A stretch of DNA of 64,000 nt from Paludibacteraceae bacterium. Lineage in GTDB: Bacteria; Bacteroidota; Bacteroidia; Bacteroidales; Paludibacteraceae. The position numbers were made by a program, and so were the translations under genes. The notes under the pieces are model-generated. The model had not been told where the DNA came from, did not search any database, and saw only the letters and a program-made list of their open reading frames with translations. This document shows positions 2,562 through 7,427 of this stretch, piece by piece (position 1 is the first letter of the stretch; each line of letters opens with the position of its first letter). The stretch lies in contig JAFTIM010000004.1 in assembly GCA_017456885.1 (NCBI GenBank), forward strand, positions 314,851 through 378,850, given 5' to 3'.

Positions 2562-3860
2562 TCAATATATCTTCTTAATCTCCGATTTTTTATAATAATG
2601 TTCTAATATTTGCCGATAATCATAACCTTTCTGACTCATCAATGCAGCTCCAATCTGACAAAGCCCCACGCCATGTCCCCAGCCGGCTCCATAAAAAACA
2701 AAATTTGAAGCTTCCTTTTCAACTACAAACGCCGAACTATATAAGTGCGTTTCCGACAACCATTTCCTAATTTCAAGTTCTTTCCCGACAACAACTACCG
2801 ACTTCGTTCCTACGATTTTCAGATAAGAAATACGTCCCGAACACCCTCGTTTCAAAGGAATTATATCCAATATTATACCGAAATCAATACCCGAACGACG
2901 TTTCAGCATATCTGCAAGTTGTTGTTCCGAATAGACCACTTTCCATCGAAAGAAATCGGTTGTCGATTGGTCGAAATTATTTAAAACTTGTCGTAAAACT
3001 TGTTCATCGGTTACGTTACAAAACGAATCCGGCGATGACATTATCCATTTTTTGGCATCTGCTTCGGTTGTCAAGTCAAAAGTCAACTCTTCTTCGGGAT
3101 TATCAGGGACACATTCCAAATATTCATAATGCTTATCAGCCCAACACGTATCGAATCGTTCGGTTGCACCTCCACAAGACTTTGAAAAACGAGCATCACA
3201 AATTTCTCCTTCGCTCACCAAAACCTCGCCCCGCGTTGCCTCCACAGCAGCTTTTGCTTCCGGGGTTGTTACTTTTGTAATGCCTTGATAACGCTGACAA
3301 TGATCGTCGGCACATACATCGTAGTTTTTATGTTTATCGCGTTCATACCACCTATTCACAAACAACACATCGGCGTCTAACGCCATCGGCATTTCCGAAG
3401 TCTGACAATCGACATGTTCAACCATTTGACTTAATAACCAACTACGAGATATAACGGCATGCGCTTTTAGCAACTCCATATAAGACGTTGCACTCATTTC
3501 AGAAGAAATAACGCTGGTCAGATAATCTTCTATCGGTAATATGTTTATTGCAGTTATCAAATCGTCTTCAACCATAAATTTCAAACAGCCCTGAAAACGT
3601 TGAAGTTCTTTCTTTTGCCAATGAAAGCCGATTCCGATAACCACTTCTTTCAGTTCAAAAAAAGATTTGTCGTAACATAGAGGTGAGAAGACGAGTTCTT
3701 CATAAAGACGTCCCAAAAATTTCACTTTCCCCTCATATGCCGATACGGACAATTTCCCCTCAAAAAGATTGTCCAACAATTGATATTGTCCTTTTAATCG
3801 GAAGGTTATTTCTTTCGACGACAATATTCCGACCGAAATCTGTTCGGGAATCAAATTCAT
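2562..3860 (-). CDS. SpoIID/LytB domain protein without signal peptide
   Basis: The protein has 432 residues. The SpoIID/amidase-enhancer core starts near residue 105 (IEDYLTSVISSEMSATS, then LKAHAVISRSWLL) and ends with the conserved GWGHGVGLCQIGAALMSQKG and ILEHYYKKSEIKKIY. SpoIID proteins cleave peptidoglycan strands lacking stem peptides, or enhance amidases, normally outside the membrane. Here the N-terminus (MNLIPEQISVGILSSKEI) is not a signal peptide, which is odd. Its ATG overlaps the TGA of the upstream DUF4922 gene by four bases (ATGA), so the two are translationally coupled. This organism shows no sign of sporulation; the name reflects homology only. Confidence 0.85.
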   Translation of the reverse strand: MNLIPEQISVGILSSKEITFRLKGQYQLLDNLFEGKLSVSAYEGKVKFLGRLYEELVFSPLCYDKSFFELKEVVIGIGFHWQKKELQRFQGCLKFMVEDDLITAINILPIEDYLTSVISSEMSATSYMELLKAHAVISRSWLLSQMVEHVDCQTSEMPMALDADVLFVNRWYERDKHKNYDVCADDHCQRYQGITKVTTPEAKAAVEATRGEVLVSEGEICDARFSKSCGGATERFDTCWADKHYEYLECVPDNPEEELTFDLTTEADAKKWIMSSPDSFCNVTDEQVLRQVLNNFDQSTTDFFRWKVVYSEQQLADMLKRRSGIDFGIILDIIPLKRGCSGRISYLKIVGTKSVVVVGKELEIRKWLSETHLYSSAFVVEKEASNFVFYGAGWGHGVGLCQIGAALMSQKGYDYRQILEHYYKKSEIKKIY

Positions 3861-4735
3861 AATCCGACTTGCTGATAAATATCAATAATATCTTCAAGAT
3901 TTATTCTTTGGAAATGCTCCTCTTTGGGAAGAACCACCACACCGCTCATCTCGGCAGTGCCGGGGCTAACCATCAACGTCTGTGATTCAGGAGCCTCGTA
4001 TTGCCATGGACGTGATTTTTTTCTCGGAAAAACAAAAATCAACCATCTACCGGCAGAATAGGAACAAAGCAAATTCATCATCGGTGCGTTTGTTCCGAAA
4101 AGTTGTCGTTTCAAATACTCAAAATGAAAATTTGCCGATTGGATTTCTGAAGATTCTATGCAAAAAACCGTGCGAAAAACTCCAAGTATTTTATAGGTCA
4201 TTGCTCCATTTTTCTTAAAAAAAGGAGTCTTTCCCAACGTGTCATAACTTACCAAAAGAGGAAACGAATTCTGCTCCGCCGCCTGAAAATGCAAATGGTC
4301 AGGAGCTGATGCCCCGCAATTTATTCCATTGAAAAACACGGCGAAATTGGGTAGTTGCTCCGACACGGACAGCAATTCCGAAAAATGACCGTTTATATCT
4401 TGCAAAATGTGCTGCCGATGCGCTATAACCAAATGATTAGGGAAAATAGGGTAAGGATTGAGTTGAACAACATAATCCTGCCAAAACATGCTGAGCTCTT
4501 CCGCAGGCTGATTTTGCAAACACAAAAAACATTTCCGTTTCGAGATGCTTTCGGCATCAAGTTTTGCTCCCGTAGAGGCTATTCTTGTAGGATTAAATTG
4601 CAAAACAATTTTTGTCGTAGGCAATAAAAAAGTACGCGTCTTTATCAAAGATAAATTATCATAGTTTTTTTTTGCGAAACTCCATTGCGAGAGTTGCTTT
4701 TCTATAAAAGGATATATTTGTGTCTGCAAATCCAT
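3857..4735 (-). CDS. DUF4922 protein, HIT/GalT-like nucleotide phosphorylase fold
   Basis: The 292-residue protein is read from the ATG at 4735; an in-frame TTG four codons upstream is less likely. Two landmarks point to the HIT/GalT superfamily. A CxxC pair sits in KCFLCLQNQP (about residues 68-71), followed by PIFPNHLVIAHRQH. A HxHxQ triad (PDHLHFQAAE) sits about residue 145, where GalT and Ap4A phosphorylases place the nucleophilic histidine. A nucleotidyl-transfer or phosphorolysis activity is therefore plausible, but the substrate is unknown. The ATGA overlap with the downstream SpoIID-like gene suggests a shared pathway. A minus-strand -7 box TACTTTTG (4752-4745) ends only about ten bases before the ATG. 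Confidence 0.82.
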   Translation of the reverse strand: MDLQTQIYPFIEKQLSQWSFAKKNYDNLSLIKTRTFLLPTTKIVLQFNPTRIASTGAKLDAESISKRKCFLCLQNQPAEELSMFWQDYVVQLNPYPIFPNHLVIAHRQHILQDINGHFSELLSVSEQLPNFAVFFNGINCGASAPDHLHFQAAEQNSFPLLVSYDTLGKTPFFKKNGAMTYKILGVFRTVFCIESSEIQSANFHFEYLKRQLFGTNAPMMNLLCSYSAGRWLIFVFPRKKSRPWQYEAPESQTLMVSPGTAEMSGVVVLPKEEHFQRINLEDIIDIYQQVGL

Positions 4736-4831: not shown

Positions 4832-5683
4832 ATGAGTGAAAAGGAATGGACAGAAGTAATCAAGCCGCATAAAAGCCTTTTAAGCGTTGATTTTAAAGAG
4901 ATTTGGCGTTACAAAGATTTATGGGCAATGTTCGTAAAACGAGACATTATCACCCAATACAAACAAACGATACTTGGTCCTTTATGGTTTTTTGTCCAAC
5001 CGATAATGACCACCATTATGTATATGGTCGTTTTCGGAGGCATTGCGGGAATCCCGACAGACGGTATCCCTCAACCGTTATTTTATCTGTCAGGCATCTG
5101 TCTTTGGCAATATTTCGCCGATTGTTTAAACAAAACATCGAATACGTTTCTTTCTAATGCCGGCATTTTTGGTAAAGTTTACTTTCCTCGCTTAATTGTT
5201 CCATTGTCCACAGTTACGTCATCAATGGTTCGGCTCGGCATTCAAATGCTATTATTTATTATTGTTTATCTCTATTACATAATATTTACCGATGTAACCG
5301 TTACACCAAATTTTTATATACTATTATTGCCATTACTCATCTTGATATTAGCAGGATTAGCGTTAGGATTCGGGATTTTATTTTCATCAATGACGACAAA
5401 ATATCGTGATTTGACATTGCTTTTATCTTTTTTCGTGCAACTATGGATGTATGCCACACCCATAATTTATCCTTTAAATACGATCTCGAACGAGAAATTA
5501 CGTTTTGTAATGACCTTAAATCCAATAACTCCTATTGTAGAAACTTTTAAATTTGGCACTCTTGGAGCAGGTTCTTTCAGTTGGTGGAGTTTAGGTTATA
5601 GTTTCGTATTCACATTGCTGTTGTTAGCAATCGGAATTATCATATTCAATCGTGTTCAACGTAGTTTCATGGATACTGTTTAA
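4832..5683 (+). CDS. ABC-2 type polysaccharide/polyol-phosphate export permease
   Basis: The protein has 283 residues and about six transmembrane helices. The cytoplasmic start KDLWAMFVKRDIITQYKQT and the following LGPLWFFVQPIMTTIMYMVV are diagnostic of Wzm/TagG-like permeases, which export O-antigen or teichoic-acid-like glycans. The family normally sits next to a dedicated ATPase (Wzt/TagH), but none is adjacent here or elsewhere in the window. A -7 box (TAAATTTG, 4807-4814) precedes it. Downstream come a LysM protein, a barrel, thyA, a flippase and a glycosyltransferase on the same strand. Confidence 0.9.
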   Translation: MSEKEWTEVIKPHKSLLSVDFKEIWRYKDLWAMFVKRDIITQYKQTILGPLWFFVQPIMTTIMYMVVFGGIAGIPTDGIPQPLFYLSGICLWQYFADCLNKTSNTFLSNAGIFGKVYFPRLIVPLSTVTSSMVRLGIQMLLFIIVYLYYIIFTDVTVTPNFYILLLPLLILILAGLALGFGILFSSMTTKYRDLTLLLSFFVQLWMYATPIIYPLNTISNEKLRFVMTLNPITPIVETFKFGTLGAGSFSWWSLGYSFVFTLLLLAIGIIIFNRVQRSFMDTV

Positions 5684-5702
5684 CCATTTAATTTTAAAAG
5701 AG

Positions 5703-7427
5703 ATGAAACCGTCTATTTCAAAAATATTTTTTGCATTTGTTTTAATTGTGTTTTTACCGGCAAGAGGGCAAGACCAACTTTACCCGAAAATCACAGAAAA
5801 CAATCAAGAATTCTACCTATATCAAGTGTCGCAAGGTGAAGGTTTGTGGTCTATCAGTAAGAAATTTGAAGTCTCACAAAATGAATTACACCAATACAAT
5901 CCTGAACTTGCTCAAGGGTTAAGATATGGCATTACACTTAAAATACCTGTAAGGAAACAGGTTTTTCAACCTAAACAACAAAATAAAAGCACAGAGTCGG
6001 GCGAGTATAAAACACACATTGTCGAACCTTCGCAAACGTTATACTCCATTGCAAAAATGTATAATGTTTCAATAGGAAGCATCATCGCTCTAAATGCTTC
6101 GGCCAGAGATGGTCTGAAAGTTGGAGAAGAACTCAAAATACCTATCAGCAATCAAAACATTGAAACAAAAGAGGACATCAATAACGACACATCTGTATTT
6201 ATTTTGCACGAAGTAAAAAGAAAAGAAACCTTGTATTCCATCAGCAAACAATACGGAGTTGACATCAACTCGATTTTAGAATCTAACGATATTAAAGACG
6301 TTATCAAAAAGGGTGATGTTTTACGAATTTTCAAACGGCATGGACATGCTTTGACGATACAAAAAAACGACAACATTGTTTCCGACACTGCGAAAACGGA
6401 GGTATATGATAATGACAAGTATGCCGACACCATTTCCAATGTGCTTCGAGTAGCAATTATGCTACCTTTCAAATTAGACATGGCAGGTGCTGAAAAATTC
6501 GTCGATTTTTATCGAGGAGTACTTTTGGCTATTGATGCAGCAAAAAAACAAGGTACATCATCTATATTGTATGTGTACGACACCGGAATTTCTGAAAACG
6601 ATATTGATTCTTTATTAACAAAAGAAGAATTGCAACATGTCGATTTAATTATTGGTCCTGCCTATACAAATCAAATTCAGAAAGTTACCGATTTTGCAAA
6701 ACAACATCAAACTTTTGTGGTTATACCCTTTTCGCAGAATGTAAAAGACTTGGGAAACAACCCTTACATTATCCAATTCAACCCACCAAAACAGATGTTT
6801 CTGACCATATCAAAAGGGGAATTACTCAAAAAATTTAAAAACAGACATATTTTGTTGGCCTATTTTGAAAACAACTACGACGAAGGGAACAATTTTGCCA
6901 ATGCACTTTTAGCCGATTTGTTAGTAACAAACACTCCTCATTCAAGATGCTTCATTACAGAAGAAAATGCCGACTCTATTTGCGAATCAGCTGTCAGTCA
7001 GCACGCTTCTATTCTATTAGCGTCCTCAACTCCCGAGCGCGTCAAACCCATATTACGGAAAATAAACCAATATCGTATAGGTACGGATTTGGAATTGATA
7101 GGATTTGACAGATGGGGATTGTCTCTTTTGACCGAAAGTAAGCCCATCTACTTTACCTCTTTATTTAATCCTTATTCAAAATTTGCTCTACAATACAAAA
7201 CCGAATATGAAAAATATTTCGGCATTGCCAACAACGCATATCCGAACTACGACCAATTAGGATACGATATTATGTGCAACATGATAGAAATGTTAAAAGA
7301 AAAACGAGTAAGCAATAATTTGACATTTCCCGAATTGAACAATGTTCAATCAGATATGAAATTCAAAAAAATAATGCCCGATGGCGGATGGGTCAACGAA
7401 CATGTCTATTTAATTCATCTTGAATAA
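5703..7427 (+). CDS. LysM-repeat protein with periplasmic-binding-like domain
   Basis: The start chosen is the ATG at 5703, preceded by AAAAGAG. A longer frame back to 5652 would run into the permease gene and spoil the signal peptide. The 574-residue product has a signal peptide (about 1-23). Three LysM domains follow (about 37-83, 102-148 and 165-209), each with the GL/TLYSISKxY and LKIP signatures. The C-terminal half (about 248-574) resembles type-1 periplasmic binding proteins (VAIMLPFKLDMAGAEKFVDFYRGVLLAID). LysM modules bind peptidoglycan glycan strands. The ligand of the second half is unknown. It is 19 bases from the permease and two bases from the next gene. Confidence 0.87.
   Translation: MKPSISKIFFAFVLIVFLPARGQDQLYPKITENNQEFYLYQVSQGEGLWSISKKFEVSQNELHQYNPELAQGLRYGITLKIPVRKQVFQPKQQNKSTESGEYKTHIVEPSQTLYSIAKMYNVSIGSIIALNASARDGLKVGEELKIPISNQNIETKEDINNDTSVFILHEVKRKETLYSISKQYGVDINSILESNDIKDVIKKGDVLRIFKRHGHALTIQKNDNIVSDTAKTEVYDNDKYADTISNVLRVAIMLPFKLDMAGAEKFVDFYRGVLLAIDAAKKQGTSSILYVYDTGISENDIDSLLTKEELQHVDLIIGPAYTNQIQKVTDFAKQHQTFVVIPFSQNVKDLGNNPYIIQFNPPKQMFLTISKGELLKKFKNRHILLAYFENNYDEGNNFANALLADLLVTNTPHSRCFITEENADSICESAVSQHASILLASSTPERVKPILRKINQYRIGTDLELIGFDRWGLSLLTESKPIYFTSLFNPYSKFALQYKTEYEKYFGIANNAYPNYDQLGYDIMCNMIEMLKEKRVSNNLTFPELNNVQSDMKFKKIMPDGGWVNEHVYLIHLE

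Follow-up and report, generated by a model that had tools for sequence, protein, structure and literature searches.

A DUF4922 protein, a leaderless SpoIID-domain protein and a tandem glycosyltransferase form a conserved gene set of Bacteroidota with a probable role in AmpG-linked peptidoglycan-sugar recycling

The window, a 64,000-nucleotide stretch of a Paludibacteraceae genome, carries two adjoining minus-strand genes: one for a DUF4922 protein (B; 3857 to 4735, 292 aa) and one for a SpoIID/LytB-domain protein without a leader (C; 2562 to 3860, 432 aa). Together with a third gene conserved around DUF4922 (A; about 480 residues), they form a trio that is a real, conserved feature. A, B and C probably constitute a soluble, cytoplasmic enzyme set for the AmpG-linked recycling of peptidoglycan sugars. 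This reading is supported because the three proteins are leaderless, fused to one another in some genomes, co-occurring, linked to AmpG, NamZ and amidase genes, and invariant in their catalytic residues. The location and pathway of the set are well supported; its exact reactions we infer.

B was matched by the DUF4922 profile PF16269 with an E-value of 5.9e-53 (profile search; 179.2 bits against a cut-off of 23.6), and the window genome contained a single copy each of B and C. The CxxC and HxHxQ motifs named in the original prediction are present in B as C69 and C72 (4520 to 4531, minus strand) and as H147, H149 and Q151 (4283 to 4297, minus strand). Among the 190 rows of the larger B alignment that have a residue there, C69 was identical in all and C72 in 189; H147 and H149 were each identical in 191 of 191 rows, and Q151 in 188 of 191. 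Conservation of HxHxQ was what the original prediction had staked itself on. We take the CxxC cysteines to be zinc-ligand-like, as in GalT, and HxHxQ to be the presumed nucleotidyl-histidine active site. The AlphaFold model of B (pLDDT 93.6) had the fold of a phosphorylase of the HIT/GalT superfamily: yeast Ap4A phosphorylase Apa2 aligned over 252 residues (Z 22.5, rmsd 3.1), and the next matches, ADP-glucose phosphorylase and GalT, had Z values of about 9. The fold and the HxHxQ active site are common to all of these enzymes and B, but identity to Apa2 was 13-18% in the fold matches, and the partners of B, unlike those of Apa2- and GalT-type enzymes, are cell-wall recycling genes. The Ap4A_phos_N profile PF19327 scored 14.2 bits on the window's B, below its cut-off of 23.1, which some homologues passed (e.g., L061, 25.8 bits). 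The NCBIfam GalT profile scored 19.7 bits on B against a cut-off of 650, and a sequence search of the PDB with B gave no match.

C was matched by the SpoIID profile PF08486 (E-value 2.3e-24, 86.3 bits, cut-off 23) and by TIGR02669, SpoIID_LytB (181.5 bits, curated cut-off 83.3). In alignment with the C. difficile SpoIID structures 5txu and 5i1t, E121 of C (3498 to 3500, minus strand) was the equivalent of the catalytic E101, and the residues H177-x5-C183-x3-H187-C188 (3297 to 3332, minus strand) aligned with the zinc residues H134, C140, H145 and C146. Each of these five residues was invariant in 110 of 110 rows, and the idea that C is a degenerate pseudo-enzyme was dropped on this ground. According to passages of PMC6221140, the substitutions E101A, C140A and H145A each abolish the in vitro activity of C. 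difficile SpoIID; the same passages cite the zinc motif only in that protein among the structures compared there, and it is also present in C. The domain and the catalytic Glu are thus shared with the SpoIID lytic transglycosylases of B. subtilis and C. difficile, and the zinc residues with the C. difficile type. C differs from these enzymes in having neither signal peptide nor membrane anchor and in being joined, in some genomes, to enzymes of the cytosol, and it differs from sporulation SpoIID in scoring 132.4 bits on the equivalog TIGR02870, under the cut-off of 234.75. Hydrolysis by a SpoIID fold has precedent, since the chlamydial SpoIID is described in passages of PMC9928106 as a muramidase as well as a lytic transglycosylase.

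The ATGA overlap noted in the original prediction lies at 3857 to 3860 on the minus strand: in it, the start codon of C (ATG, 3860-3858) overlaps the stop codon of B (TGA, 3859-3857). Conservation of the pair, put forward there as a check, was borne out: of the 100 C genes that were unfused and could be read at the N-terminus, 91 were directly downstream of B, which is not an unbiased rate because the loci were chosen through B, and some genomes were counted twice under two locus entries. The same four-base overlap occurred in 24 of the 91 adjacent pairs, the window's own included. The arrangement of B and C is not chance. Elsewhere in the window, the protein encoded at 5652-7427 joins three LysM repeats to a weak periplasmic-binding-protein-like C-terminal part, which is an unusual combination.

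Export signals were scored by a crude hydropathy window, not by SignalP, and on this measure none of 78 A proteins, 176 B proteins or 82 C proteins (those with a complete N-terminus) reached the mark of 2.2. Among the positive controls, 31 of 33 NamZ and 16 of 24 amidase neighbours reached it. The lack of a signal peptide in the window's C, claimed from the outset, thus held both in this protein and in its homologues, and neither of the two results that the original prediction had named as refuting it was seen. A start-site error as the cause was dropped, as each upstream candidate Met was tried and none gave a signal peptide, and the conserved start of C, EPxIxVGIL, lies no more than about ten residues from the Met. 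Four genomes with a leaderless C (G224, G066, G035, and G097) also encode SpoIID paralogues that, judged by eye, have leaders and are exported; these paralogues are without the full zinc motif. Exported paralogues in L210, L211, L212, and L213 read SDVECQ in three cases and ADVECQ in L213; C reads CADDHCQ. C is very likely cytoplasmic because its homologues carry no signal and because it is fused to cytosolic enzymes.

Altogether, 15 fusion ORFs were found among those examined: five A-B fusions (L061, L077, L079, L080, and L082), eight B-C fusions (L075, L078, L081, L083, L084, L127, L173, and L190), and two A-B-C fusions (L192, uncut; L076, cut by a contig end). The DUF4922 profile was built with length limits because of the A-B fusions. 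The ORF at L192:1925-5821, from a Prevotellaceae MAG, joins GT2, DUF4922 and SpoIID domains in one protein of 1298 aa. None of the 15 had a hydrophobic N-terminus, the highest 12-residue mean being 1.71. These ORFs bear on the very improbable alternative that C leaves the cytoplasm along an export route not yet recognised and acts as the periplasmic partner of a secreted amidase, as annotated in T. forsythia. Such a role would agree with the classic SpoIID work, all of it extracytoplasmic, and with the secreted amidase-like gene present in 44 of 134 long loci. It is opposed by the eight B-C and two A-B-C fusion ORFs, by the want of a leader or clear hydrophobic segment in every fusion, and by the leader-bearing paralogues that exist in the same genomes.

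In A, Pfam recognises a GT2 domain (PF00535) towards the C-terminus and nothing in the N-terminal half. Its AlphaFold model (pLDDT 88.4) matched tandem GT-A domains in Foldseek, the top match being the E. coli K4 chondroitin polymerase (K4CP; E-value 6.4e-19), although superposition across both domains jointly was poor (rmsd about 22). K4CP, TarP/TarS and heparosan synthase 2 are GT2 enzymes with the GT-A fold of A, in tandem in K4CP; A differs from them in that only one half matches PF00535, and identities were about 14-24%. All 147 aligned rows of A had the GT2 motifs DSDD and GED unchanged. There was no clear membrane segment, with a maximum 19-residue mean hydropathy of 1.74 among 155 rows. 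In the window genome, A (G000:C6:57157-58476) lies apart from B and C, directly behind a gene for a Golvesin-domain, amidase-like protein. At this locus (L202:4046-8483) the amidase-like protein is a secreted one, and GlcNAc-kinase-like and NagB/PIG-L genes are close.

The chondroitin polymerase-like layout of A, with its invariant DSDD and GED motifs, would also suit a set that builds and turns over a separate cytosolic glycan, with A as its polymerase, B in charge of the nucleotide sugar and C as the trimming enzyme; the AmpG linkage would then reflect only the use of salvaged amino sugars. We regard this as unlikely: the N-terminal GT-A half of A has no Pfam match and looks degenerate, the neighbours are enzymes of recycling and not of polysaccharide assembly, and murein is the known target of the SpoIID domain family. 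For the recycling set, the addition of A also amends the original prediction, whose cytoplasmic placement very likely stands but whose pair becomes a trio with this tandem-GT2 protein.

The search for DUF4922 covered two draws of genomes, 296 from across the phylum and 295 from across the order. Presence was called at E<=1e-60 for A, E<1e-30 for B, and E<=1e-20 for C; the cut-off for B omits five genomes with weaker PF16269 matches, three in the phylum draw and two in the order draw. In the phylum draw, A was present in 40 genomes, B in 41, C in 40, and all three in 39. In the order draw, the counts were 75, 71, 74, and 71, respectively. The full trio therefore occurred in 39 of the 41 phylum-draw genomes with any member and in 71 of 76 such genomes of the order draw, and Fisher P-values for co-occurrence, which ignore phylogeny, were 2e-46 or smaller. 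In many genomes A, B and C lie on separate contigs or far apart, so hitch-hiking in an operon does not account for all of the co-occurrence.

The close fold match to Apa2, and the weaker ones to ADP-glucose phosphorylase and GalT, could point to B as a housekeeping phosphorylase of Ap4A or NDP-sugars that serves nucleotide hygiene and is linked to C only incidentally. This is improbable in view of the distribution of C, which was present in 40 of 41 phylum-draw and 71 of 71 order-draw B genomes, even when unlinked, and was absent from the remaining 255 phylum-draw genomes, which are without B. The fusions, moreover, join B to both of its partners.

Partial sets were seen in G156 (no A), G223 (no C), G306, G390, G538, G572, and G575. 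In G538, of the same family as the window genome, A is followed directly by C and there is no B (L214:3850-6487). In G572, the place of B (L216:5688-7416) is occupied by a GDSL gene and by an ORF that resembles sugar kinases but matches no family, and the order is divergent A, sugar-kinase-like ORF, GDSL, C, AmpG. The gene sets of these two genomes and G223 show that either B or C may be absent on its own. In G223, a NagZ-like GH3 gene without a leader lies directly behind A-B (L219:8905-10104). Its replacing C there was kept as a hint only, as L068, L069, and L074, all three with C, also have GH3 genes close to the cassette.

Neighbouring genes were counted in the 134 long loci, 80 of them named and 54 unnamed, whose flanks are often cut. 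An AmpG-family muropeptide permease gene was found in 79 of these loci and a NamZ exo-muramidase in 36, beside the secreted amidase-like gene already mentioned; GHL10 and GlcNAc-kinase-like genes also recurred. Of the AmpG ORFs, 69 were no more than 300 bases away from A, B or C. The AmpG, NamZ and amidase genes nearby indicate that the earlier suggestion of recycled muropeptides named the right pathway. The members of the module are scattered in the window genome, where AmpG is not adjacent to B-C.

The order amidase-A-B-C-AmpG-NamZ of the loci matches that of Tanf_08345-08370 in T. forsythia, where passages of PMC5388701 report 'xanthan lyase'-gtf-gtf-lytB-ampG-ybbC as one operon by RT-PCR under the control of GppX, with lytB annotated as 'amidase enhancer precursor'. 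From gene order and names we infer that Tanf_08350-08360 are A, B and C; the window genome departs from this operon in having B-C and A apart from each other and away from AmpG. The passages of PMC5388701 name Tanf_08350-08360 but give them no function. Nor is a function for gtf-gtf-lytB given in the passages of PMC7670621, or in those of PMC5790795 and PMC10465942, which treat MurK and the murTKQ genes. A literature search on DUF4922 and on SpoIID/amidase enhancer with AmpG and Bacteroides, which had most subscription papers outside its reach, found no study of A, B or C. The novelty originally expected of the pair thus needs qualifying: the neighbouring operon has been published, though with no function for these genes.

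Gene content was compared in a hand-picked sample of 36 non-cassette genomes and 40 cassette genomes, the latter out of 114 distinct genomes that have at least one cassette gene (41 plus 76, three being shared between the draws); G538, with A and C and no B, was counted among the 40. An AmpG-family match at E<=1e-20 was found in 40 of 40 cassette genomes against 8 of 36 others, an assignment that rests below the curated cut-off of TIGR00901, at which 0 of the 76 genomes had a match. AnmK was found in 12 of 40 cassette genomes against 33 of 36 others; for genomes of the order alone, the figures were 4 of 25 and 13 of 16, respectively. The P-values ignore phylogeny. Strong MurQ matches (E<=1e-80; weak TIGR00274 matches occur nearly everywhere) were scored in the same 40 cassette genomes and in 32 of the 36 others, and were found in 28 of the 40. 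Sixteen cassette genomes had MurQ without AnmK and 12, the window genome among them, had neither. Replacement of AnmK is not strict, as 12 of 40 cassette genomes keep it. That the cassette always feeds MurQ was rejected, and its product would not always go to MurQ, because 12 of 40 cassette genomes are without both AnmK and strong MurQ.

In the recycling route that we propose, peptides would be stripped from the cell wall by outer enzymes and AmpG would import peptide-free GlcNAc-MurNAc and GlcNAc-anhydroMurNAc, the substrates that passages of PMC7670621 report for T. forsythia AmpG. Within the cytoplasm, C would apply chemistry of the SpoIID type to C1 of MurNAc; its most likely reaction would be the opening of the 1,6-anhydro ring or the cleavage of MurNAc-GlcNAc, and this chemistry may free many of these bacteria from the need for AnmK. 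A may transfer an amino sugar from saccharide to nucleotide or back, and B, via a nucleotidyl-histidine, may swap the nucleotide for phosphate. The depletion of AnmK fits the opening of anhydroMurNAc by C, though that depletion is not strict. As proposed here for C, the AnmK of E. coli-type recycling acts on anhydroMurNAc downstream of AmpG; AnmK is depleted where the cassette occurs, and C comes from another family.

A bolder version, to which we give a low but real chance, is an energy-saving cytosolic route for muro-disaccharides. A would work as a glycosyltransferase in reverse, by the logic of sucrose synthase, cutting GlcNAc off (anhydro)MurNAc and attaching it to a nucleoside diphosphate. 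B would phosphorolyse the NDP-GlcNAc to GlcNAc-1-phosphate and free the nucleotide. C, as a lytic transglycosylase running backwards or with water, would open anhydroMurNAc in place of AnmK.

For T. forsythia, passages of PMC7670621 predict no AnmK, call the fate of anhydroMurNAc unexplored, and pose its use without AnmK as a question. For the AnmK-lacking Bacteroidota, the cassette offers three candidate enzymes, with residues to mutate, for the use of anhydroMurNAc. Among the named loci, it occurs in common gut genera, namely Bacteroides, Mediterranea, Dysgonomonas and Parabacteroides. A SpoIID-domain enzyme very likely inside the cell has been hidden by the annotations 'amidase enhancer precursor' and 'SpoIID/LytB'. 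If the proposal is true, an intracellular SpoIID protein that opens an anhydro-sugar would be a new use of the SpoIID fold.
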